This document shows positions 5,779 through 40,195 of a DNA stretch of 41,835 nucleotides, one piece after another. Under the pieces are notes generated by a model. It was not told the DNA's origin. It made no database searches and saw only the letters and a program-made list of their open reading frames with translations. Each line of letters starts with the position of its first letter. The first letter of the stretch is position 1. The DNA comes from a virus: IMG/VR virus record IMGVR_UViG_3300049617_000022, positions 1-41,835 of that record, one strand, 5' to 3'. The position numbers were made by a program, and so were the translations under genes.

Positions 5779-6060
5779 ATGAATTTCAGTGAGGCATTAG
5801 AACGAATAAAAAATGGTGATAAAGCATATCGTGAAGGTTGGAATGGCAAAGATATGTTTGTGTATCTGGTAGAGGGATCGCAGTTTGTAGTGAATCGCGC
5901 ACCTTTAAATAAGATTTATCCAGAAGGTACAGAAATCAATTACAGACCGCATATTGACTTAAAAGCTGCCGATGGAACTTGTGGTGTATGGTCGCCAAGT
6001 AATAGTGATGTTCTTGCAGAGGATTGGCGCATTAAACAATCAAATCATATAGAGGAATAA
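5779..6060 (+). CDS. DUF2829 / Tad2-like anti-Thoeris protein
   Basis: The start is ATG 5779, preceded by GGAGA; a GTG at 5707 would add 24 unrelated residues. The 93-residue product matches the DUF2829 family pattern along its length: WNGKDMF at 21-27, NRAPL at 39-43, IYPEGTEINYRPHID at 46-60, Trp71, and LAEDW at 79-83. DUF2829 is the family of Tad2, which binds the glycocyclic-ADP-ribose signal of Thoeris defence. The gene sits as a cargo gene between scaffold and coat. Family membership looks firm. The anti-Thoeris activity of this member is inferred. Confidence 0.85.
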   Translation: MNFSEALERIKNGDKAYREGWNGKDMFVYLVEGSQFVVNRAPLNKIYPEGTEINYRPHIDLKAADGTCGVWSPSNSDVLAEDWRIKQSNHIEE

Positions 6061-6063
6061 TCC

Positions 6064-6222
6064 ATGAAAAAGAATGGTGTTGATTACGATGAATGTTGTT
6101 ATGAAGAAATGACCAATAAAGTTGGTGGTCAATCACAGCCACAAGAATATCATGATGAACCTATGCGTAATGCATATGAGAATCGTGACCACAATGCTTT
6201 TGACCAATCGGGGATGAAGTAA
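6064..6222 (+). CDS. Small polar protein, unknown
   Basis: This 52-residue acidic protein (MKKNGVDYDECCYEE start) sits three bases after the Tad2-like gene. It has a GAGGAATA ribosome site overlapping that gene's end. Its stop overlaps the next ATG (TAATG). No domain is recognised. It is probably expressed as part of the same small-gene cluster. Confidence 0.65.
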   Translation: MKKNGVDYDECCYEEMTNKVGGQSQPQEYHDEPMRNAYENRDHNAFDQSGMK

Positions 6223-15809: not shown

Positions 15810-17879
15810 ATGACAACATATGTGCGTGGAGCTTGTCCAGTTTGGTGGATGTGCGATCTTCAAGGTCTACCATTAAATGATACTTATTTTGCATTTTTCT
15901 TAGATAATGTATTTCCATATACATTTCAGGATGTGTTTGAAAACTATTTACCGGGTTCAAATGCATGGTCTAATCCAGTGCAATTCTTTGCTGATGGTAC
16001 ATTGCCGAATAACATATATTTTGATCCTGATCTAGTTTATACAATTGAAATACGTCAGGGAAATACCCAAAACTCTCCATTGATTAGACAGATATTGAAT
16101 TATCAGCAACCTGATGACCAATCTGTGTTATTGCAATCATTCGATAATTCCACAAATGTATTTGTTAATCCGCAATTTGCTGATCTTAGTTTTATTTCTC
16201 CATTATCACTTAATACGGCTGGAACATATAATATTGCTCCGGGTTGGGATTTGAAATTAGTTGGTACGGGTACAGCAACAATAACCCAAAATACTATATC
16301 GGGTGATTCAGCTGGAGAAATGAGTATCGCTAATGGTGTATCTCTGGCTAATCCTCCTTATTCATTAACCTTTGGTTTATCTGGATGGTCAAGTGCCATC
16401 CTTTACCAGAGATTATCCAATAATGGCGCAATATTTGCTGGTGGATCAATTGCTGTTACAGTAAGTGCCGTATCGGGAGCTGGTACATTACCATTAACAG
16501 CGCAATATGTTGATTCACAAGGCAACTCATCATTTATTGATACATGGCAGGTTACATCTGGATATTACCAAAATTATCCTGCTGCAATAAATGTTCCAGT
16601 AGGGTCTTCTTATTCAACTAATACAGATATTGGACAAGCTGCTTATGTAGACCTGCAATTTGTATTGCCAAATACAGGCACAATATCATTAACCAATATG
16701 CAACTTCTTGGTCAAACTGACGTGCTACCTACCGTCGCAGTTATTCCACCATATATTCAACAGACCTATGAACAGGTAGTTAGTGCTGAATTTGCCTATT
16801 ACAAACCACAAATATTTTATAAACCTATTTCCAGTTATTTGGTGGGATGGGATTTTCCGTTAAATCCAGCGCAAGCAATTGGTCATAGTATTTCAGCGCA
16901 GGCAACTGGAAATAACAAGGCATTTTATGCATGGGATCAGACTGTATTTTTCCAGTCATTAACAAATGGATTTACTATTACACAGAGTAATGATGGTGCA
17001 ATGAGTGTGGCTGCTGCTGTGGTTAATCCGCAATTTGCTATCATTCAATACTTGCCTAACAGTGTGACATCAAGTACTGGAGGAATTGCGACTGAAATAT
17101 TAAATAATATTCTATCAGCAAATTTTTACGGTTATTGCGATAGTGGCCAGACTGTACCAATCAATATTTCACTATGGTACACGACTGGATCATTGCCATC
17201 AGCTGGCTCTGGTAATTCTCCAATATTAACTTTAGGAAGTGACGGACATCCTGCGACAACTGCTGCTGGATGGGTTGAAATACCATTTTCCAATGGACAA
17301 CATGCTAATGCAACAGTGTTGCCGCAATCAAATAGTGTGATGAATTATCCATTTAGTAATTGGAATTTGAATAACCCGTCAATTGCTGATACTGCAACAT
17401 TCTTTGCAATCATCGTAGGTACTGGCATGATTACGAATACCAAGGCACTTTATATTCGTTCAGTAAGTCTTGTTCCGGGGCATATACCAACACAACCAGC
17501 CCCGCAAACACCAGATCAAGTATTGCGTGAATGTCAGTATTATTACGAAAAATCTTATGACATAGCCATACTACCCGGTGCAACTGGCACATCTCCGGGC
17601 GAAGCTAGTGCGCAACCTTCTTCAAATGCATTAGTTATGCCGGGATTAAATACAGCATTTAAAACAGCTAAATATACTGATCCCGTTATTGTCTGGTATT
17701 CACCGGGCGCATCAGGAGCTTCTGGTAACATTTATGATGTAACTGGAGGTGCTGATTTAGCAGTTTCATCAACAATTGGTGCTGGACAATCAAGAACTGG
17801 TTATCCAGTTTGTTCGGCAGCAACAGCCAATCATCTTTATACAGGTCACTGGACGGCGGACTGCCGATTAGGAGTTTAA
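15810..17879 (+). CDS. Tail fibre protein
   Basis: This 689-residue, beta-rich, Ser/Thr/Gly/Asn-rich protein follows the ejection genes. The first 110 residues look like a tail-attachment domain (FFLDNVFPYTFQDVFENYLPG, then YFDPDLVYTIEIRQG). A middle region contains two jelly-roll-like segments with AGGSIAVTVSAVSG and an INISLWYTTG block. The end is a compact domain with QYYYEKSYD and NIYDVTGGADLAVSS. It probably forms the trimeric host-recognition fibre. No pectate-lyase-type enzymatic motif was recognised, so spike-like depolymerase activity is unsupported. Confidence 0.8.
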   Translation: MTTYVRGACPVWWMCDLQGLPLNDTYFAFFLDNVFPYTFQDVFENYLPGSNAWSNPVQFFADGTLPNNIYFDPDLVYTIEIRQGNTQNSPLIRQILNYQQPDDQSVLLQSFDNSTNVFVNPQFADLSFISPLSLNTAGTYNIAPGWDLKLVGTGTATITQNTISGDSAGEMSIANGVSLANPPYSLTFGLSGWSSAILYQRLSNNGAIFAGGSIAVTVSAVSGAGTLPLTAQYVDSQGNSSFIDTWQVTSGYYQNYPAAINVPVGSSYSTNTDIGQAAYVDLQFVLPNTGTISLTNMQLLGQTDVLPTVAVIPPYIQQTYEQVVSAEFAYYKPQIFYKPISSYLVGWDFPLNPAQAIGHSISAQATGNNKAFYAWDQTVFFQSLTNGFTITQSNDGAMSVAAAVVNPQFAIIQYLPNSVTSSTGGIATEILNNILSANFYGYCDSGQTVPINISLWYTTGSLPSAGSGNSPILTLGSDGHPATTAAGWVEIPFSNGQHANATVLPQSNSVMNYPFSNWNLNNPSIADTATFFAIIVGTGMITNTKALYIRSVSLVPGHIPTQPAPQTPDQVLRECQYYYEKSYDIAILPGATGTSPGEASAQPSSNALVMPGLNTAFKTAKYTDPVIVWYSPGASGASGNIYDVTGGADLAVSSTIGAGQSRTGYPVCSAATANHLYTGHWTADCRLGV

Positions 17880-25571: not shown

Positions 25572-25928
25572 ATGGAAGAATCATGGGGTTTAAGTTGTAG
25601 TGTTGATGTAATAAATTGTGATCTAGCTATCATAAAGTCACCTGCAGAAATTCAACGATATGTGATTGAGTTATGCAAGTTAATTGACATGAAGCGTTAT
25701 GGTGATTGTCAAATAGTGCATTTTGGTGCAGATGAGAAAGTAGCTGGATATTCGATGGTACAACTTATAGAAACATCCCTGATTAGCGGACATTTTGCCA
25801 ATCTCTCTCGGAGAGCTTTTATAGATGTATTTTCATGCAAGGATTTTGATACTAATGCGGTTGCTGAATTTACTTTAGATTTTTTCAAAGGTGATGGTTA
25901 TTCAGCAAATTGTCAGATCAGAGGTTAA
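25572..25928 (+). CDS. S-adenosylmethionine decarboxylase-like protein
   Basis: This 118-residue protein resembles short phage and bacterial AdoMet decarboxylase proenzymes. It has an IDMKRYGDCQIVHFG region, then GYSMVQLIETSLISGHF and AFIDVFSCKDF. Aligning SxxxxH and DVFSC with known enzymes puts the pyruvoyl-forming Ser at 69, the His at 74 and the catalytic Cys at 89, all present. The reaction removes CO2 from AdoMet for polyamine synthesis. In a phage it could also lower AdoMet. It lies three bases after the Xre gene. A divergent non-enzymatic role remains possible. Confidence 0.65.
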   Translation: MEESWGLSCSVDVINCDLAIIKSPAEIQRYVIELCKLIDMKRYGDCQIVHFGADEKVAGYSMVQLIETSLISGHFANLSRRAFIDVFSCKDFDTNAVAEFTLDFFKGDGYSANCQIRG

Positions 25929-25933
25929 GTGAT

Positions 25934-26006
25934 TGGCATGTAGCTTAGTTGGTAGAGCACCGGTCTGTTAAACCGGATGTCGTAGGTTCGAGTCCTACCA
26001 TGCCAG
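25934..26006 (+). tRNA. tRNA-Asn (GTT)
   Basis: A complete cloverleaf can be drawn. The seven-pair acceptor TGGCATG/CATGCCA is perfect. The D stem is GCTT/GAGC around AGTTGGTA, and the anticodon stem CCGGT/ACCGG has loop CTGTTAA and anticodon GTT. The T stem GTAGG/CCTAC has loop TTCGAGT. The discriminator base is G and no CCA is encoded. It is the only full tRNA seen, and directly precedes a structured RNA candidate and the RtcB gene. Confidence 0.97.
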
Positions 26007-26010
26007 AAAG

Positions 26011-26480
26011 AAGTCGGCTGGGTAATTCATGCCCTTTCCAGACGCGCCAGCCGTTTGCCGCAAAGCTGGCAAGAGTAACGGGTAACTCTGCACTTGAAAG
26101 ATATTGCTCCGAGGCAAGGAGCTTAAATAAATCGCCTCAGAGTTACCCTATGAGGTGGCTGGTTCGATTCCAGCAGGTATGTGTGTACGGTGGCTAAGAT
26201 GCGATTCTTAGAAGGCGAATGGGTTGTGGTGACCAGCCGACAGATTAGTAGGCAGCCGGAAACATGCCAAAGAATTATGGGCGACACGCGAAGCCAAGTG
26301 AAGACAAGAGCAGGTGGCATTAATTGCTGAATCTATTAAGCGCGCACCAGGTCGCCCACTGAATTTAAGGCAATACGTCCTATGTACGCGAGTAGGAATG
26401 GGCTAGAGCGAGATGAATGATATTTCCAAGTACTGTGAATCCCATCAAGCCGGGCAGTAACCAATCTGCCTATTGCCGCC
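26011..26480 (+). ncRNA. Large structured RNA candidate between tRNA-Asn and rtcB
   Basis: About 470 bases hold no credible gene but many long pairings. CGGCTGG 26015-26021 pairs with 26047-26053. An alternative hairpin is GCCAGC 26046-26051 with 26065-26070. An 11-pair helix joins 26080-26090 to 26138-26148. It encloses hairpin GCTCC/GGAGC (26106-26122), whose loop GAGGC pairs with GCCTC 26134-26138 as a pseudoknot. A tRNA T-arm mimic (GCTGG, TTCGATT loop, CCAGC) sits at 26158-26174. Hairpins lie at 26194-26211, 26378-26397 and 26453-26470, and seven-pair helices join 26279-26285/26351-26357 and 26369-26375/26471-26477. The class is unassigned; ornate phage RNAs of GOLLD or ROOL type are the comparison. 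Confidence 0.7.
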
Positions 26481-26502
26481 AGTTTTATTTAGGAGATATG
26501 TA

Positions 26503-27669
26503 ATGAAAGTATTTGAAGGAAAGCGTGTACCGATTAAGGCATGGGTTGATGGTGTAACATTAGAAGAAGAAGCACTTAAGCAGTTACAAAACCTATCTGA
26601 AATGCCATTTATTTATAAGCATATTGCAGTCATGCCTGATGCTCATTGGGGTATGGGTTCAACTGTGGGTAGCGTCATTGCTACTAATGGTGCGATTATT
26701 CCAGCAGCTGTCGGAGTAGACATTGGTTGTGGTATGGCTGCTGTTAAGTTGAAGCTTAGAGCTGAACACCTATCAGGACTAGATACATTGCGTTCATCAA
26801 TTGAACGTTCTGTACCAGTTGGGTTTCATGCGAATAAAGAAATCACGCATCGTATGTGGTCATCAATCAAGTCAACACATCCAGATGGTACGCCAGTCAA
26901 TGAAAAGACCTATCTACAATTAGGAACACTTGGCGGTGGGAATCACTTCATTGAAATCTGTTTAGACCAAAACAATGATGTATGGATTGTGCTGCATAGT
27001 GGCAGCCGTAACATTGGTAAAACATCAGCTGAGAAGCATATCAATGCAGCGAAAGGTTTGATGCAAGAGTACTTTATTTCTTTGCCAGATCCAGACTTGG
27101 CTTATTTGGTGCAAGATACAGATCCATTCAAGCGGTACATTGCTGATTTGCTATGGTGTCAGGATTATGCAAAGCAAAATCGTAATGAAATGATGTTACG
27201 TGTTTTGAAAGACGTTGCTTACCATGTGTATGGTTCAGATAAGCGTTACGACCATTTGGTAGATATGCGTGTGGACTGTCACCATAACTTTACGCAACAG
27301 GAAAACCACTTTGACAAGAATATTTGGATCACACGTAAAGGTGCTGTTTCAGCGCGTGAAGACCAGTTAGGGATTATTCCGGGGTCAATGGGTACACGTA
27401 GTTATATTGTACGTGGCAAAGGCAACCTTGAGTCATTCTGTTCATGTTCGCATGGTGCAGGGCGAGCCATGAGTCGTAACAAGGCTAAGAAGTTATTCAC
27501 GTTGGAAGACCATATGAAAGCAACAGAAGGTGTGGAGTGCCGAAAGGATGAAGATGTGATTGATGAAACGCCAATGGCTTATAAAGATATTGACATGGTT
27601 ATGGCAGCCCAGGCTGATTTGGTTGACATTGTATATACGTTGAAACAAGTACTTTGCGTGAAGGGTTAA
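26503..27669 (+). CDS. rtcB: RtcB-type RNA ligase
   Basis: ATG 26503 follows TAGGAG; an in-frame start at 26473 would lie inside the structured RNA. The 388-residue protein has the RtcB metal and nucleotide-binding set: GVDIGCGM with Asp73 and Cys76, GGGNHF with His148, IVLHSGSRN with His165, DCHHNF with His260/261, and CSHGAGR with His317, the residue guanylylated in E. coli RtcB. RtcB joins 2',3'-cyclic phosphate or 3'-phosphate ends to 5'-OH ends and repairs cleaved tRNAs. No archease gene was found. The tRNA and structured RNA directly upstream may be substrates. Confidence 0.93.
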   Translation: MKVFEGKRVPIKAWVDGVTLEEEALKQLQNLSEMPFIYKHIAVMPDAHWGMGSTVGSVIATNGAIIPAAVGVDIGCGMAAVKLKLRAEHLSGLDTLRSSIERSVPVGFHANKEITHRMWSSIKSTHPDGTPVNEKTYLQLGTLGGGNHFIEICLDQNNDVWIVLHSGSRNIGKTSAEKHINAAKGLMQEYFISLPDPDLAYLVQDTDPFKRYIADLLWCQDYAKQNRNEMMLRVLKDVAYHVYGSDKRYDHLVDMRVDCHHNFTQQENHFDKNIWITRKGAVSAREDQLGIIPGSMGTRSYIVRGKGNLESFCSCSHGAGRAMSRNKAKKLFTLEDHMKATEGVECRKDEDVIDETPMAYKDIDMVMAAQADLVDIVYTLKQVLCVKG

Positions 27670-27672
27670 AGA

Positions 27673-27897
27673 ATGACTAACGAAACTGAATTGAAGCCTT
27701 TAAAAGATGAATTAAATATCAACATAGTTTACATAATTGTATATGACAATATTTTTGATTCGCATATTTCTGGAAATGTTATTTTGGCAGACAATTATAT
27801 ATATTCTACAAGGGAAATAGCCCAAAAACATTGGAGGCAACTTGGCGCGTCAAGATTTGGATTTAGCATAAAGGAAATGGAGTTAATAAAAGAATGA
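27673..27897 (+). CDS. Small protein with a Lar-like start, unknown
   Basis: A 74-residue protein begins MTNETELKPLKDE. This echoes the start of the next gene's product (MNETELKPCPFCG), but without its cysteines. The remainder is a mixed fold with IVYDNIFDSHISG and EIAQKHWRQLGA. It overlaps the Lar-like gene by an ATGA junction. The shared start suggests partial duplication or recombination at the 5' end of the gene. Confidence 0.65.
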   Translation: MTNETELKPLKDELNINIVYIIVYDNIFDSHISGNVILADNYIYSTREIAQKHWRQLGASRFGFSIKEMELIKE

Positions 27898-28220
27898 ACG
27901 AAACTGAGTTGAAGCCGTGTCCGTTTTGTGGTAATGAGGCTAAATTTACCGATAACAAGAATGTTAAATCTGATTATGCGCCTATTAGCTATGGAGTTAA
28001 GTGCAGGAATTGTTTTGTGATAAGTGAATATGAAGATAATAAACAATTAGCAATCAAAGCATGGAACACCCGCACCGATGCAGAGTTGCAGGGGAAGTAT
28101 GAAAAGGCAATTGAATTCTTATGGAATCTTGATTGGAATGTGCCTAGAAAGTTAGTCACCATTGATGAGGTTTTGGAAAATGCCAAAGAATTACTCCGCG
28201 AGTTAGGGGAAACAAAATGA
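27894..28220 (+). CDS. Lar-like zinc protein (restriction alleviation family)
   Basis: This 108-residue protein begins ELKPCPFCGNEA, with Cys9 and Cys12, and has a second pair VKCRNC at 37 and 40. It ends its zinc domain with AIKAWNTR. This is the pattern of the Lar restriction-alleviation family, widespread in phages. The C-terminal 45 residues are helical (QGKYEKAIEFLW...ENAKELLREL) and resemble the next protein's end. Lar of Rac prophage moderates type I restriction. Activity here is inferred only from the family. Confidence 0.75.
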   Translation: MNETELKPCPFCGNEAKFTDNKNVKSDYAPISYGVKCRNCFVISEYEDNKQLAIKAWNTRTDAELQGKYEKAIEFLWNLDWNVPRKLVTIDEVLENAKELLRELGETK

Positions 28221-28884: not shown

Positions 28885-29151
28885 ATGCAAGTAGATGACG
28901 GAATAATAAGTAAATTACATGCTTTCTATCATATTTATCCATCAATGCAATCAAAGTTACATGACTTGCAAAAAAAAGTTGAGCATCTTGAAAATGCTAG
29001 AGCTATTAAATGTGAAGAAGAAAAGTATGAGAAAGTTATTATTAAGCAATTTATTGGTAAAATTAAACGTATAGAGCAATTTCTCATAGAGCATGGATTA
29101 ATAAAGTTATTGGGTAAAAAAGTGGAGAATAAAGATGAAACTAGTTTATAA
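28885..29151 (+). CDS. Small helical protein, unknown
   Basis: An 88-residue, Lys-rich helical protein follows GGGGAAGGT. It has a KCEEEKYEKVIIKQFIGKI segment reminiscent of the KYEK helices in the two genes upstream. It overlaps the start of the Prs-like gene by 17 bases, which suggests coupled translation into the NAD+ pathway genes. Confidence 0.6.
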   Translation: MQVDDGIISKLHAFYHIYPSMQSKLHDLQKKVEHLENARAIKCEEEKYEKVIIKQFIGKIKRIEQFLIEHGLIKLLGKKVENKDETSL

Positions 29152-29962
29152 GCACAATCAAGAGAAGCACTTCAAGATAATCCGTTATCCAGATGGTCAG
29201 CAGTCGGTGGAATTGGATATGAATTATTTTAATGATCCTAAGCAGCCTGTCACTATGCAGGTCAGTATTAGGAATTGGATGGAGCTAGAGGTCTATCATT
29301 GCTTATGGTCAGCACTAATGAAGAATGATTTTATTGTTGAACAGATAGACTTTATGTACTTGATGGGTATGCGTTCGGATAGAGCATTTGCTGTTGGTCA
29401 ACCAAATTACTTTAGGGATATTATAAATCCACAAATTAGTGGAGGAAGGCATCGTATTGGAGTGCTATATCCCCATAGTCCAATTGGTTTAATGTACATA
29501 CGTCAAGCTACTGCAATGCATGTTTCGCTTAAAGAAGACGGATATTATGTCATTGGTGCTGACCAATCTGCGCTTTGGTCACATCCCAATTATTCTATTT
29601 ATCTTCCACATTTCAATAAGAAGCGTACTGCAGATAAAGTTGAAATTTATTTAATTCATGATGTACACAGTGCAATTGAAAAGCTGCCAGAGCATACTCC
29701 AATTCTCATCAAGGACGATTTATGTGATGGCGGTGCTACATTCATTGCTATTGCTGAATATCTTGAGAAGCATTATCCAGAACGTAAAAGAGAATTATTT
29801 GTAGCCCACGGATTATTTACTAAAGGAGTAGACCATGTTGCAAAACATTATAGCCAAGTTATTACAACTAATTCATATCAAGACTTCGAACCGCACCCTA
29901 AGCTCCAAGTCATTGACGTGTGGAATGAAGGACGACCTGCTTCAACATTTGTTAGCTCTTAA
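29135..29962 (+). CDS. Prs-like protein, candidate ADPR pyrophosphokinase (Adps)
   Basis: This 275-residue protein has the phosphoribosyl-pyrophosphate synthetase fold markers: RYPDGQQ near residue 17, FMYLMGMRSDR (73-83), a basic HFNKKRTADKVE loop at 159-170, and the ribose-phosphate loop DDLCDGGAT at 194-202, then VAHGLFTKGVD. It is shorter and more divergent than host Prs and lies directly before a Nampt-like gene. In the NARP1 pathway such a protein turns ADP-ribose into ADPR-pyrophosphate rather than making PRPP. Substrate choice here cannot be read from sequence alone. Confidence 0.85.
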   Translation: MKLVYKHNQEKHFKIIRYPDGQQSVELDMNYFNDPKQPVTMQVSIRNWMELEVYHCLWSALMKNDFIVEQIDFMYLMGMRSDRAFAVGQPNYFRDIINPQISGGRHRIGVLYPHSPIGLMYIRQATAMHVSLKEDGYYVIGADQSALWSHPNYSIYLPHFNKKRTADKVEIYLIHDVHSAIEKLPEHTPILIKDDLCDGGATFIAIAEYLEKHYPERKRELFVAHGLFTKGVDHVAKHYSQVITTNSYQDFEPHPKLQVIDVWNEGRPASTFVSS

Positions 29963-30104
29963 GGAAAACAAGCTAGAAGCCAAGTCCATGATTGATTACT
30001 ACAACAAGCTAATCAAGTCATATATGGATGAAGTTGAAAGCTTAGACATAGCTATTCCAGCATTAGAAAATGCCGTTATCGCATTACAGGAAAAAATGAA
30101 ATAA
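29925..30104 (+). CDS. Small coiled-coil protein between the NAD+ genes
   Basis: A 59-residue helical protein starts at ATG 29925 inside the end of the Prs-like gene. An in-frame ATG at 29835 has a good AAAGGAG but would add 30 residues overlapping the Prs frame, so the start is uncertain. The sequence (ENKLEAKSMIDYYNKLIK and later IPALENAVIALQEKMK) is a probable coiled coil. Function unknown. Confidence 0.55.
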   Translation: MKDDLLQHLLALKENKLEAKSMIDYYNKLIKSYMDEVESLDIAIPALENAVIALQEKMK

Positions 30105-30156
30105 AGATCAATAGATTAACCATTAAGTAGTGTTACTGGTCAACAGGATAACCATT

Positions 30157-31599
30157 ATGAATATAAGTCCGATATTTTTAAAAGATGCCTATAAGGTCGA
30201 TCACATCCGACAATATCCGCCTGGCACTGAAGTAGTCTTTAGTAATTTTACTCCTAGGAAGTCACGTATGCCGAATGTAAATCATTCGGTATTTTTTGGT
30301 CTGCAGTATTTCTTGAAAGAATACTTGATGAAAGAATTCAATGAGAGATTCTTCAAATCACCGGGATATGTAGTAGATGAAGGTGCAACTAGAGCCTATC
30401 AATATCAAAACATTATTAATCAATGTTTAGGTAATGATGAATATCCGCACCATATTGCTGCTCTTTACAATCTAGGCTATTTACCAATCGCAATCTATGC
30501 CTTACCAGAAGGTGCTGTTGTGCCTTGTGGTGTGCCAGCATTGGTGATGTTCAATACCCACCCTGATTTCTACTGGCTGCCCAACATGTTGGAAACACTA
30601 ATGTCTTGCACCTTATGGCAGCCATGTACATCGGCCACTATTGCTAGAGAATATCGCTTATTGTTAGACAAGTACGCTGCAGAAACTTCTGATATGCCTG
30701 AATTTGTAGATTATCAGGCGCATGATTTCTCTATGCGTGGTATGTCATCGGTTGAATCTGCTTGTCTATCAGGTATGGCTCATCTGCAGTATTTCAAAGG
30801 TACAGATACCATTCCAGCAATGATTGCCAATTCCCAGTATTACGATAATCCATTACATATTTGTAGTGTGCCGGCAACCGAACACTCTGTTATGTCAGCT
30901 GGTGGTCAGGAGAGTGAATTTGAAACCTACGAACGACTTATTTCTACCTATCCTCATGGTATTTTGTCTATTGTTTCTGACACATGGGATTTATGGAAAG
31001 TCATTACTGAATACCTTCCAAGACTTAAAGATCAGATCATGCGACGTGACGGTAAAATCGTTATTAGGCCAGACTCAGGTGATCCAGCCAACATAATCTG
31101 TGGTAGTTCAGCACCGAAAAGAACATGGGATGCTCCACACACGTTAGGCGTAGTTGAATGTTTATGGGAGATATTTGGTGGAACAGTTAATTCAAAAGGT
31201 TTTAAACAGCTTGACCCTCACATTGGGTGTATCTATGGCGATTCCATTACTCTCGATAGGTGTAATGATATTTGTGCAAGACTTAAGAAAAAAGGTTTTG
31301 CTTCTACAAATGTTGTGTTTGGCATCGGTTCTTACACTTATCAATTTAATACGCGTGATACATTAGGCTGGGCAATGAAAGCAACCTATTGCGAGATCAA
31401 TGGTGTTGGTCATGCGATTACAAAAGACCCTGTTACTGATGACGGCATAAAGAAATCGCATTCAGGTTTGCTTAAAGTGGTAATTGATATTCCAAAGCCC
31501 GGCTTTCCATATAAGGTTTTGCAAGATCAAACTTGGGATGACTTCTATGCTGCAGATAATGAACTGAAATTAGTTTATAGGGATGGGAAGATATTATGA
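30157..31599 (+). CDS. Nampt-like transferase, candidate Namat of NARP1
   Basis: ATG 30157 gives 480 residues, near the size of human NAMPT; a start at 30130 adds nine unlikely residues. Conserved points include KDAYKVDH with Asp10, HDFSMRGMSS (189-198), FKGTDT (213-218), SVPATEHS with the catalytic His243, IRPDSGDP (303-310), GDS (361-363), FGIGSYTY (388-395) and Arg400 in NTRD. The enzyme joins nicotinamide to a pyrophosphorylated ribose donor. Beside a Prs-like gene it most likely acts in NAD+ reconstitution, making NAD+ from ADPR-pyrophosphate and nicotinamide. Plain NMN synthesis is the alternative. Confidence 0.9.
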   Translation: MNISPIFLKDAYKVDHIRQYPPGTEVVFSNFTPRKSRMPNVNHSVFFGLQYFLKEYLMKEFNERFFKSPGYVVDEGATRAYQYQNIINQCLGNDEYPHHIAALYNLGYLPIAIYALPEGAVVPCGVPALVMFNTHPDFYWLPNMLETLMSCTLWQPCTSATIAREYRLLLDKYAAETSDMPEFVDYQAHDFSMRGMSSVESACLSGMAHLQYFKGTDTIPAMIANSQYYDNPLHICSVPATEHSVMSAGGQESEFETYERLISTYPHGILSIVSDTWDLWKVITEYLPRLKDQIMRRDGKIVIRPDSGDPANIICGSSAPKRTWDAPHTLGVVECLWEIFGGTVNSKGFKQLDPHIGCIYGDSITLDRCNDICARLKKKGFASTNVVFGIGSYTYQFNTRDTLGWAMKATYCEINGVGHAITKDPVTDDGIKKSHSGLLKVVIDIPKPGFPYKVLQDQTWDDFYAADNELKLVYRDGKIL

Positions 31600-34864: not shown

Positions 34865-35653
34865 ATGTCAGAAAAAACCATTCATATCGTCTTTCAAGTA
34901 CTAAATTTTATCACATCAGAAGACTCCACCCCCTACCAGCTCACAGCTGATGAGGAGAAATTGCTATTGATATTGGCAAGCCATAAGGGTGATAAAGGTA
35001 TATACCCCGGCATACCCACGTTGGCAGCCAAGACTAAGCGTCACCGCACCAATGTCATCAAGACACTAAGCAAACTGGAAGAAAAGGATTTACTCCTGAT
35101 TGACCGTTTGTCTGGCCGATCAAACCATTACACCCTAACCATCCCCACCTTAAAGTTATCCACAACCAGTAGCGCGCACGCCACCAGTAGTGTGGACACT
35201 ACCAGTAGTGCCGACGCCACTACACCCGTAGTGTCCACGCTCACAACCAGTAGCGTCCACGCTACCCGATTAGCTTTAAGAAGATCTAAGAAGAATAAAA
35301 CAGAGAGAGGACGCGCTTCGCTTGCCTCTCCACTCTCTGTCTTTCAACCATCAGAGCAAAACCAGTTCCTAGCGTCAGACCTACGCCTCGACCTGGCTGC
35401 AGAGCTGGAGTCCTTCAGGCATCGGCACAAGGGTGAGAAGAACCAATACGAGTTTGAACGCTGGTTAAAAAATAGCCACGCGTATCGTAGCCGGCAGCCG
35501 AGTGGCAAATCGGTCAATGAGCCGATGCCACAGCGGTCAACGTATGTAGATATGCCACCGGTGATTCGCACACCGCAATCAGATGCGATACGAGAGAAAG
35601 CCATGCAGGAGATGCGGGGGTTCTTAAGGAAAACCATTGTTACAGGGAAATGA
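34865..35653 (+). CDS. Replication initiator with winged-helix domain (O-like)
   Basis: A 262-residue protein. Residues about 20-97 are a helix-turn-helix of the HTH_36 type (LTADEEKLLLILASHKGDKGIYPG, then TNVIKTLSKLEEKDLLLIDR), used by phage replication initiators. Residues 98-135 are a repetitive Thr/Ser/Ala/His linker encoded by DNA repeats (see 35169-35340). The C-terminal part is helical and basic, a possible helicase or loader contact. This mirrors lambda O, in which the origin lies inside the initiator gene. No phage helicase or loader was recognised, so host ones are probably used. Confidence 0.75.
   Translation: MSEKTIHIVFQVLNFITSEDSTPYQLTADEEKLLLILASHKGDKGIYPGIPTLAAKTKRHRTNVIKTLSKLEEKDLLLIDRLSGRSNHYTLTIPTLKLSTTSSAHATSSVDTTSSADATTPVVSTLTTSSVHATRLALRRSKKNKTERGRASLASPLSVFQPSEQNQFLASDLRLDLAAELESFRHRHKGEKNQYEFERWLKNSHAYRSRQPSGKSVNEPMPQRSTYVDMPPVIRTPQSDAIREKAMQEMRGFLRKTIVTGK
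35169..35340 (+). repeat. Iterons and hairpin inside the initiator gene, probable origin
   Basis: Five copies of an imperfect palindrome, consensus GTAGYGTSSACRCTAC, start at 35169, 35187, 35205, 35228 and 35250. Copies two (35187-35202) and five (35250-35265) are perfect inverted repeats apart from the two central bases. Spacings are 18, 18, 23 and 22. An A-rich tract follows (35281-35300), then a hairpin ACAGAGAG/CTCTCTGT (35300-35340). Symmetric iterons next to an A-rich stretch within an initiator gene match the lambdoid origin layout. Confidence 0.75.
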
Positions 35654-38981: not shown

Positions 38982-39202
38982 GTATACACCTTCGCTTTAC
39001 GCGCACGTATTAACATTTCATGAATATATCGGGGATAATTAAATTCATTGCGCAATGCAAATGTTGCATACATTTCTTCGCATTTAGTAATGAATTTTGA
39101 ATAACTTAAATCTTTTCCCGGATTCATAAGGGGATAGAGTTCAAGTAGATTCTTTTCATGTTGTTTAGCGTCTATAGCATTGATGTCAATGTTTTCAGAC
39201 AT
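38978..39202 (-). CDS. Small protein, unknown
   Basis: A 74-residue protein behind AAAGGAG. The N-terminus is acidic. The centre (LSYSKFITKCEEMYATFALRNEFNYPRY) and the basic end IRARKAKVY suggest a helical nucleic-acid- or protein-binding unit. It follows one copy of the structured repeat. Confidence 0.65.
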   Translation of the reverse strand: MSENIDINAIDAKQHEKNLLELYPLMNPGKDLSYSKFITKCEEMYATFALRNEFNYPRYIHEMLIRARKAKVYT

Positions 39203-39291
39203 TTTGTTTCTCCTTTAAAGTTTATAAAGATAATCCATAATAGGTACAATCTGACCTATTTTGTACTTGTACTGTACCTATTAGTATTACC
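39203..39291 (-). repeat. Structured intergenic element, copy 2
   Basis: Outer stem GGTAAT (39291-39286) with ATTATC (39234-39229). The inner stem of 11 pairs joins 39283-39273 to 39248-39238. An AAAGGAG ribosome site and the ATG at 39202 follow. The stop codon of the upstream gene lies inside the outer stem. Confidence 0.75.
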
Positions 39292-39442
39292 CAATTAATG
39301 CTTGTTCTGCTGCATCATTAGCGAGTATTTCATCTAGTGCTGATTCAGGTAATGTTTCCATAATCCAATACAGCAACATTTGTTTGTCATAATCTCTTTC
39401 GAGAATGTCATACACTTTTTCTAATTTCTGTTCTAATGTCAT
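39287..39442 (-). CDS. Small acidic helical protein
   Basis: A 51-residue helical, acidic protein (EQKLEKVYDILERDYDKQM, then LPESALDEILANDAAEQAL). Its start overlaps a 15-codon frame just upstream, and its stop is part of the structured repeat. No family is recognised. Confidence 0.6.
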   Translation of the reverse strand: MTLEQKLEKVYDILERDYDKQMLLYWIMETLPESALDEILANDAAEQALIG

Positions 39443-39486
39443 ATTAAAACGCCATAACCGAATCTGGTTTGTACTTCGTATTTCAT
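39439..39486 (-). CDS. Possible 15-residue coupling peptide
   Basis: A 15-codon frame (MKYEVQTRFGYGVLI) connects two genes by ATGA-type overlaps at both ends. Its sequence resembles the start of the upstream protein (MPKYEVWYWVTSTYGG), so it may be the remnant of a duplicated gene kept for translational coupling. Confidence 0.4.
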   Translation of the reverse strand: MKYEVQTRFGYGVLI

Positions 39487-39671
39487 TCTGTTACCTCATC
39501 AATATCGCCACTATAAATAATTTCAGCGGCATCTCTAAGATAGCCACCATCAATTTTAATATCTGGATGACAATTGAGTGCATCAATAGCGTCATCTTCA
39601 TTATCAGCTTCGATAGTGACAGATCCGCCATAAGTTGATGTTACCCAATACCAGACTTCATATTTTGGCAT
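39483..39671 (-). CDS. Small beta-alpha protein, unknown
   Basis: A 62-residue protein: PKYEVWYWVTSTYGGSVTIEA followed by DNEDDAIDALNCHPDI. This beta hairpin plus helix layout is common in small phage proteins of unknown role. It has AAGGA in its leader, which is one copy of the structured repeat. Confidence 0.65.
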   Translation of the reverse strand: MPKYEVWYWVTSTYGGSVTIEADNEDDAIDALNCHPDIKIDGGYLRDAAEIIYSGDIDEVTE

Positions 39672-39740
39672 AGCGTATTTCCTTAAGTTATGTTTAAAGT
39701 AAATCTGTAAAGCGCACTCTGACTACGCTTTGAGATTACT
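39672..39740 (-). repeat. Structured intergenic element, copy 3
   Basis: Outer stem AGTAA (39740-39736) with TTACT (39702-39698). The inner hairpin AAAGCG/CGCTTT joins 39731-39726 to 39714-39709. A TTTAAACATAACTTAAGGA segment then leads to the start. The upstream stop codon is within the outer stem. Confidence 0.7.
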
Positions 39741-39969
39741 CTATGATTGCGACATAATCGCCACAAGGCAGTAATGCTAATGGGAAATGATGTGGTACAG
39801 TCCAACCTAATTTTGACACCATAAATTCATCCACTAACAGCCTGACAAAATCTATATCTTCCATATTTGATGGACGCTCTTTTGTTAAGCTTTGATGTTT
39901 AGTAAATGCTTTATATCTATAATCTTTGGTAGCAGTGGCAGCTAGGTATCTAATTTGTATTGCTCTCAT
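39736..39969 (-). CDS. Small protein, unknown
   Basis: A 77-residue protein (MRAIQIRYLAATATKDYRYKAF). The N-terminal part resembles small phage proteins with an RYL-ATxTK-RYKA pattern. The rest is FVRLLVDEFMVSKLGW and a short hydrophobic end. It overlaps the upstream gene by ATGA. Confidence 0.65.
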   Translation of the reverse strand: MRAIQIRYLAATATKDYRYKAFTKHQSLTKERPSNMEDIDFVRLLVDEFMVSKLGWTVPHHFPLALLPCGDYVAIIE

Positions 39970-40127
39970 GATTGTTCTTCCTTTGTGAAACCGTCAAAGT
40001 ATTTACCTTCTACGCTTGTAGACGGGTCATTGCAGTGTGCTTTCGCTTCTTCAAGCGTTAAGCCTGTTGCAATAATTCTTTGACGATTTGACTTGAAATA
40101 GAATCTAACTATTTTATAAGTTTCCAT
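39966..40127 (-). CDS. Conserved small phage protein (GLTLEEAKAHCNDPSTS)
   Basis: A 53-residue protein: METYKIVRFYFKSNRQRII, then GLTLEEAKAHCNDPSTS and KYFDGFT. This signature of a short hairpin, GLTLEEAxAHCxDPxTS and a closing aromatic-Asp-Gly is widely seen in phage genomes of many hosts. The function is unknown. AAAGGA precedes it in the structured repeat. Confidence 0.75.
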   Translation of the reverse strand: METYKIVRFYFKSNRQRIIATGLTLEEAKAHCNDPSTSVEGKYFDGFTKEEQS

Positions 40128-40195
40128 TTTGTTTTCCTTTCAGTTAGTAATTAAAGATAATCTATAGGGAGTGCATAACACTCCCGAACATTACC
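40128..40195 (-). repeat. Structured intergenic element, copy 4
   Basis: Outer stem GGTAAT (40195-40190) with ATTATC (40161-40156). The inner hairpin GGGAGTG/CACTCCC joins 40185-40179 to 40173-40167 with a five-base loop. AACTGAAAGGA then leads to the ATG at 40127. Confidence 0.75.

Follow-up and report, generated by a model that had tools for sequence, protein, structure and literature searches.

A conserved, covarying twin-T-arm RNA family of phages, encoded in the window between tRNA-Asn and rtcB

GOLLD RNAs occur in phages near tRNAs and place a conserved part next to a variable part, ROOL RNAs are phage-borne and often lie near tRNA islands, and both form nanocages (PMC12286853). Bacterial Y RNAs (YrlA), known from rsr-yrlBA-rtcBA operons, possess a tRNA-like domain and are encoded near rtcB (PMC7790460), and Y RNAs have also been reported in mycobacteriophages (PMC12282133). 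As a kind, a phage-borne structured RNA beside tRNAs has precedents; the RNA family described here, named the twin-T-arm RNA (R2), has no known relative as a family.

The window, i.e. the whole stretch of DNA that was analysed, is a virus record of 41.8 kb; it belongs to a tailed phage and encodes a portal protein, a terminase and a major head protein of phage families. By comparing sequences, we could show that positions 26157-26269 are a member of an uncatalogued phage RNA family that is conserved and covarying. This core lies in a gap (26008-26500) bounded by two genes:

25933-26007, + strand, tRNA-Asn(GUU), called by ARAGORN and by Rfam RF00005 at 75.7 bits; adjoins the gap on its 5' side
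26503-27669, + strand, rtcB (RNA ligase; PF01139, E 3e-123); the downstream neighbour, not a general partner

The gap had been described as gene-free, and no gene of a known family was found in 26008-26500. The tRNA-Asn and the gap RNA are probably co-transcribed. Elsewhere in the window, adjacent genes for ribose-phosphate pyrophosphokinase and nicotinamide phosphoribosyltransferase form a probable NAD salvage pair, and a Lar-type restriction alleviation gene and an AdoMet decarboxylase gene are also encoded (coordinates for the pair and these two genes, listed together: 29135-31599, 27894-28220, 25572-25928). On the minus strand, 35001-35430, over a replication-initiation-like gene, has the lowest GC-corrected folding energy of that strand (z to -4.1).

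The gap was correctly noted to be rich in G+C (50.4%, against a window mean of 39.5%, sd 4.1), and at least one other region of the window matches this level. The initial annotation also placed its structure far above chance, which held for the 5' half alone: 26008-26245 is exceptionally stable (z -3.34; 0 of 200 shuffles as good), whereas the 3' half folds no better than shuffles (z 0.18) and the MFE of the whole 493-nt gap is ordinary (z -0.85; 22 of 100 shuffles as good). The 11-pair helix 26080-26090/26138-26148 is indeed unusual, an equally long helix occurring in 1 of 200 shuffles; the seven-pair helices that had been singled out are not, with eight helices of at least seven pairs observed against 4.65 expected and as many in 23 of 200 shuffles. 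The reported tRNA T-arm mimic, a perfect T-arm (GCTGGTTCGATTCCAGC), is present at 26158-26174 outside any tRNA gene. A second T-arm at 26194-26211 had been overlooked, and it is the feature identifying the family. A genuine structured RNA thus lies in the gap; that it is a single RNA of ~470 nt, as first proposed, is not supported, only ~113 nt being conserved. A 9-bp helix (26013-26021/26233-26241) was dropped as a native pairing; it is probably non-native, because its 3' strand consists of invariant core bases in homologues.

The core and its elements are as follows:

26157-26269, + strand, conserved R2 core; CM R2 94 bits with the window as one of 11 training sequences, E 4.8e-22 (CM E-values being rough owing to short calibration)
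26158-26174, + strand, T-arm 1; stem GCTGG/CCAGC, loop TTCGATT; stem pairs covary in the family
26176-26181, + strand, P2 outer 5' strand GGTATG, pairing with 26263-26268
26188-26190, + strand, P2 inner 5' strand CGG, pairing with CCG at 26256-26258
26194-26211, + strand, T-arm 2; stem CTAAG/CTTAG, loop ATGCGATT; the stem covaries in the family
26214-26238, + strand, P3 and invariant centre; GGC (26214-26216)/GCC (26236-26238) around GARTGGG...CCA; invariant columns, RNAalifold helix
26256-26258, + strand, P2 inner 3' strand CCG, pairing with CGG at 26188-26190
26263-26268, + strand, P2 outer 3' strand CATGCC, pairing with GGTATG at 26176-26181

From its 5' end, the core opens with T-arm 1 and the outer and inner 5' strands of P2; after GTGG (or a variant of it) comes T-arm 2, followed by AGGCGARTGGG. 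A short loop separates the latter from CAGCC, and a variable stretch leads on to AGCCG, which closes P2 inner, and finally to the 3' strand of P2 outer. The window has T-arm 1 with GTTCRANTC/GTGCAATTC (26158-26174), P2 outer and inner enclosing T-arm 2 and the centre, and the AGGCGARTGGG...CAGCC...AGCCG centre itself. This centre is invariant in the family; note that the scans fixed the T-loop letters and GGCGARTGGG, so that the invariance of those letters is partly imposed, and that P2, the outer T-stem pairs, CAGCC and AGCCG lay outside the scan pattern that yielded most members. In other members P2 inner is CTG/CAG and CCG/CGG. The T-arm 2 loop reads TTCGANT in most members and TGCAACT in L219; with 8 nt, that of the window is unusual. 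An outer helix P1 of 11-16 perfect pairs was observed in five of 13 members (permutation test 0/100,000). The window lacks P1, its longest candidate being 5 bp, and the helix is missing in L112 and G063 too, and hence is not a defining feature of R2.

The route to the family began with unassigned T-arms in rtcB-carrying phages, which led to several tRNA-like RNAs in relatives. Three of the relatives' RNAs, with a D-hairpin loop close to GACAGUGA and the T-loop UGCAAUU, formed the basis of an IMG/VR scan that returned 65 loci, most with a complete 8-bp acceptor and T-stem (family R1, below). One of these loci, L112, holds beside its R1 RNA a stretch that matches the window core (72% over 106 nt, E 2e-7, window 26155-26258); this member hence came to light by BLASTN, in a locus that had been collected on other grounds. 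The comparison of L112 with the window yielded a motif (T-arm, 28-58 nt, RGGCGARTGGG) that, used as a scan pattern, gave seven more phages with the same anatomy. L197 was the only locus real by structure among 56 returned by a bacterial-genome scan, and its contig carries phage-type genes; L219 came from another IMG/VR pattern, G063 from a CM search, and the named-phage members, Klebsiella phages BU9 and KP13-27, from BLASTN. In BLASTN the window core also aligned with L116 (74% over 128 nt, E 5e-15) and L135 (77% over 100 nt, E 3e-13), and it is homologous to L134 as well. The 13 further members comprise 10 IMG/VR phage contigs, one virus-like contig of a planctomycete MAG and the two Klebsiella phages, so that R2 is carried by at least 13 other phages, mostly unrelated. 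A scan of 293 planctomycete genomes revealed no further R2 copies, and the listed matches of direct DNA searches of phage and plasmid collections were only tRNA, T-arm-sized pieces and chance matches. CM-supported members number 14, and those outside model training scored 52 bits (L237), 81 bits (L257) and 71 bits (L258), the last two being near-identical and counted as one independent observation.

Both Klebsiella copies sit among head genes. In KP13-27 the twin-T-arm RNA (record 39684-39791) lies in a ~1 kb gap between head genes (L258:3340-4430; record 39060-40139), together with another RNA whose acceptor is GAGCATTG/CAATGCTC and whose T-arm is ATGGGTTCGAGTCCCAT. The corresponding place in BU9 is annotated with reverse-strand hypothetical genes, which is why R2 was overlooked there.

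P2 outer has 11 different sequences in 11 aligned members and is always paired; when partners were permuted, 0 of 100,000 permutations were as good, the best reaching 60 against 69 observed. In the CM alignment of 14 members, 93.9% of cells pair and 9 of the 13 modelled pairs show two-sided changes, with a covariation score of 0.657 against 0.152 for shuffled and at most 0.143 for slid versions. Given no structure, RNAalifold finds P2, P3 and both T-arms (25 pairs, 15 of them with two-sided changes), adding P3 (GGC/GCC and the pairs inside it) to the modelled helices. Covariation among homologues, whose absence had been set beforehand as a refutation, is thus present, and its occurrence across 14 sequences bears out the suggestion of a new class of phage structured RNA. 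No reading frame is free of stops in all members, and length differences between members are not multiples of three; from these two observations we infer that R2 is noncoding.

R2 is absent from Rfam 15. A search of the window at E<=10 returned only the tRNA-Asn and sub-threshold chance matches, with no match to the group I/II intron or RNase P models, and six other member loci matched nothing in Rfam 15 except tRNA and sub-threshold chance matches. The initial annotation had named GOLLD or ROOL; neither model matches even at E<=10, GOLLD (RF02032, gathering score 150 bits) in 17 records and ROOL (RF03087) in a search run without a positive control, and cmscan of the window likewise reported no ROOL. 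R2 was not found in the open papers on phage tRNA-like RNA families that were surveyed; 'new' is meant relative to Rfam 15 and the open papers searched.

Three features describe the sequence around the core:

26008-26156, + strand, upstream structured segment; no homologue found; part of 26008-26245 (z -3.34)
26080-26148, + strand, hairpin domain; 11-bp helix GGGTAACTCTG (26080-26090)/CAGAGTTACCC (26138-26148)
26270-26490, + strand, 3' segment; no homologue found; z 0.18

The 3' segment holds a helix TGGGCGAC (26278-26285)/GTCGCCCA (26351-26358). The upstream segment occupies the place where L112 and G063 carry an R1 RNA directly upstream of R2; CM R1 run on the window gave no match at 26008-26156, i.e. 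this segment is not R1, and a back-translated scan of 26009-26194 found nothing. The window element as a whole was also rejected as an R1 member, CM R1 giving only 3.2 bits on the R2 core, at T-arm 1. A tRNA-like domain with acceptor CATGCC (26029)/GGTATG (26176) was dropped because homologues pair GGTATG downstream with CATGCC at 26263-26268.

R1 is a second uncatalogued phage tRNA-like family of ~114-173 nt, represented by 46 sequences (L040, L050-L114). Its members have an 8-bp acceptor, the D-hairpin loop GACAGUGA and the T-arm loop UGCAAUU, and a hypervariable internal domain replaces the anticodon arm. In the alignment (n=46), 98.8% of cells pair, two-sided changes occur in 15 of 18 pairs and the score is 0.736 against 0.190; only sequences with 7 or more of the 8 acceptor pairs were admitted, a filter that inflates the paired percentage but leaves the two-sided changes unaffected. 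Rfam reported nothing besides tRNA on 15 R1 loci. Examples are L040:15515-15687 and 15842-15968, and L047:8715-8843. R1 followed by the twin-T-arm RNA in tandem, with R1 directly upstream, was observed in two phages (L112 and G063); the tandem coordinates are 6151-6222 (tRNA-Asn first), 6016-6142 and 5896-6006 on the minus strand in L112, and about 1351-1603 in L237. In G004, a tRNA-like RNA whose anticodon loop is enlarged is surrounded by two strong R1 copies and one weaker match. Phages may carry a modular set of tRNA-imitating RNAs, comprising R1 and the twin-T-arm RNA, sometimes in tandem and beside tRNAs, that would target, in trans, the tRNA machinery or defences directed at tRNAs, with the window element as a composite of this set that has its own upstream module; we put this forward tentatively, at somewhat less than even odds.

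Other structured stretches were met in these phages. L040:15738-15832, in an RtcB-encoding phage, is a tRNA-like RNA (Rfam tRNA, 40 bits) whose anticodon loop appears to hold a long insert, and L040:15354-15497 is an RNA-like stretch closed by ATCACTTGAG/CTCAAGTGAT that is very stable (147 nt, z -4.46) and has no T-arm. In an rtcB phage, L007:960-1240 is a structured stretch closed by TGCACACTAG/CTAGTGTGCA, downstream of which lies a tRNA-Leu-like gene (L007:1258-1461) with a large insert near the anticodon that might be an intron. L004:1963-2165 is a tRNA-like RNA with a T run after it; its 8-bp acceptor is GCCTCTCT/AGAGAGGC, its T-arm GCGGGTTCGACTCCCGC and its D-hairpin loop CACGGTGA. It is perhaps a divergent R1 RNA, and CM R1 does not report it. 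Upstream of terminase in L025 (1050-1600), consecutive long inverted repeats share AATAGATAT-like stems, one repeat having the T-arm loop TGCAAGT; this looks like another structured-RNA array.

The best explanation of R2, to which we assign a probability of about 0.5, is that of a co-transcribed, trans-acting RNA with a covarying fold, whose T-arms imitate the tRNA elbow and so engage an elbow-reading factor. In the window, the core would be transcribed together with tRNA-Asn from a rightward operon. R2 would probably be a stable RNA working in trans, since the protein genes around it vary among phages, those downstream of it having different products in different members. A tRNA gene lies close to the core (within ~140 nt) in four cases, namely the window, L112, L130 and L197, and not in most others, and in L112 a tRNA-Asn stands upstream of the R2 copy, as in the window. 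Judged from the sequence of the two T-arms, candidates for the factor engaged are enzymes that process or modify tRNA, defence nucleases that cleave it, and the ribosome; R2 may divert or inhibit this factor during infection. Mimicry of the tRNA elbow is the best mechanism we can offer, if an unproven one. T-loops are also generic RNA tertiary modules, and those of R2 may only hold the RNA together.

This last property is central to a rival explanation, in which R2 belongs to an ornate RNA of the GOLLD/ROOL kind that self-assembles or acts as a scaffold, the T-loops are internal docking modules and the flanks (26008-26156 and 26270-26490) are the variable part of a larger RNA. A phage location beside tRNAs, a conserved core in variable surroundings and a Klebsiella copy in a ~1 kb gap with at least one more tRNA-like element would all be expected of such an RNA, given that GOLLD and ROOL are published as nanocage RNAs near phage tRNA islands (PMC12286853). 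However, the conserved core of R2 is much smaller, GOLLD and ROOL are unmatched, the 3' flank has no excess structure and neither flank has homologues that could be found, and we regard this explanation as unlikely, though worth keeping in view. R2 could instead act in cis, as a leader that regulates the gene behind it (rtcB in the window) in response to tRNA or some other ligand. The distance from the core to the rtcB start codon, which has a Shine-Dalgarno-like AGGAG, is 234 nt, and T-loop modules are found in T-box leaders, which sense tRNA, and in RNase P. Yet the downstream genes vary (rtcB in 2 of 13 records), no expression platform was seen, and a + strand scan from the core to rtcB found no terminator, which leaves a leader function improbable.

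The initial annotation had further suggested that RtcB processes or ligates the RNA, which would make the element an RtcB substrate or product, such as an intron-like or circular RNA. The two are adjacent in the window, and RtcB is also encoded in G034, G002 and G004, carriers of R2 or R1; rtcB in 4 of 46 records, against 644 of 50,697 reference phages, is a weak excess that is inflated because some records were fetched through rtcB. Since rtcB is present in only 2 of the 13 R2 carrier records (the window and G034; the records are often fragments), it is not a required partner. Moreover, L002, whose RtcB is the closest relative (85% identical), has no such RNA upstream, and a search of the element for exon-like tRNA halves returned spurious candidates only. 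A role for RtcB as processing partner is thereby not supported, and we consider the substrate explanation very improbable. Two T-arms next to a tRNA gene, with T-arm 1 a perfect match to the tRNA consensus, might also be read as tRNA pseudogenes decaying from a phage tRNA cluster, but the T-arms recur together with P2, P3 and the centre in 14 sequences with compensatory changes, which decay does not yield; we give this possibility hardly any credence.

R2 is a strongly covarying conserved RNA class without an Rfam 15 entry, and its occurrence in otherwise dissimilar phage neighbourhoods points to selection for a general role during infection. As an elbow-imitating RNA, it would add to the known phage tRNA mimics and be relevant to the way phages cope with tRNA-targeting defences. 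The isolated Klebsiella phages BU9 and KP13-27 make expression, structure and loss of function directly testable.

Among the known systems, ROOL resembles R2 in being phage-borne and near tRNAs and differs in that its model gave no match at E<=10. GOLLD is similar in that R2 is phage-borne, can be near tRNAs and has a conserved part beside variable parts; the conserved core of R2, however, is just ~113 nt, and the GOLLD model matched in none of the carrier records. R2 has in common with Y RNAs a tRNA-like domain and, in the window, proximity to rtcB; the Y RNA models in Rfam did not match the window, and a Pfam scan of ten window frames, including those nearest the RNA, found no Ro domain. tmRNA and tRNA share the GTTCRANTC T-arms with R2, whereas R2 has two T-arms per molecule, no anticodon arm and no acceptor beside T-arm 1; for tmRNA, ARAGORN and cmscan gave spurious low-threshold calls only. 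The R1 RNAs, finally, are like R2 in being phage-borne and in having a T-arm at the tRNA position.
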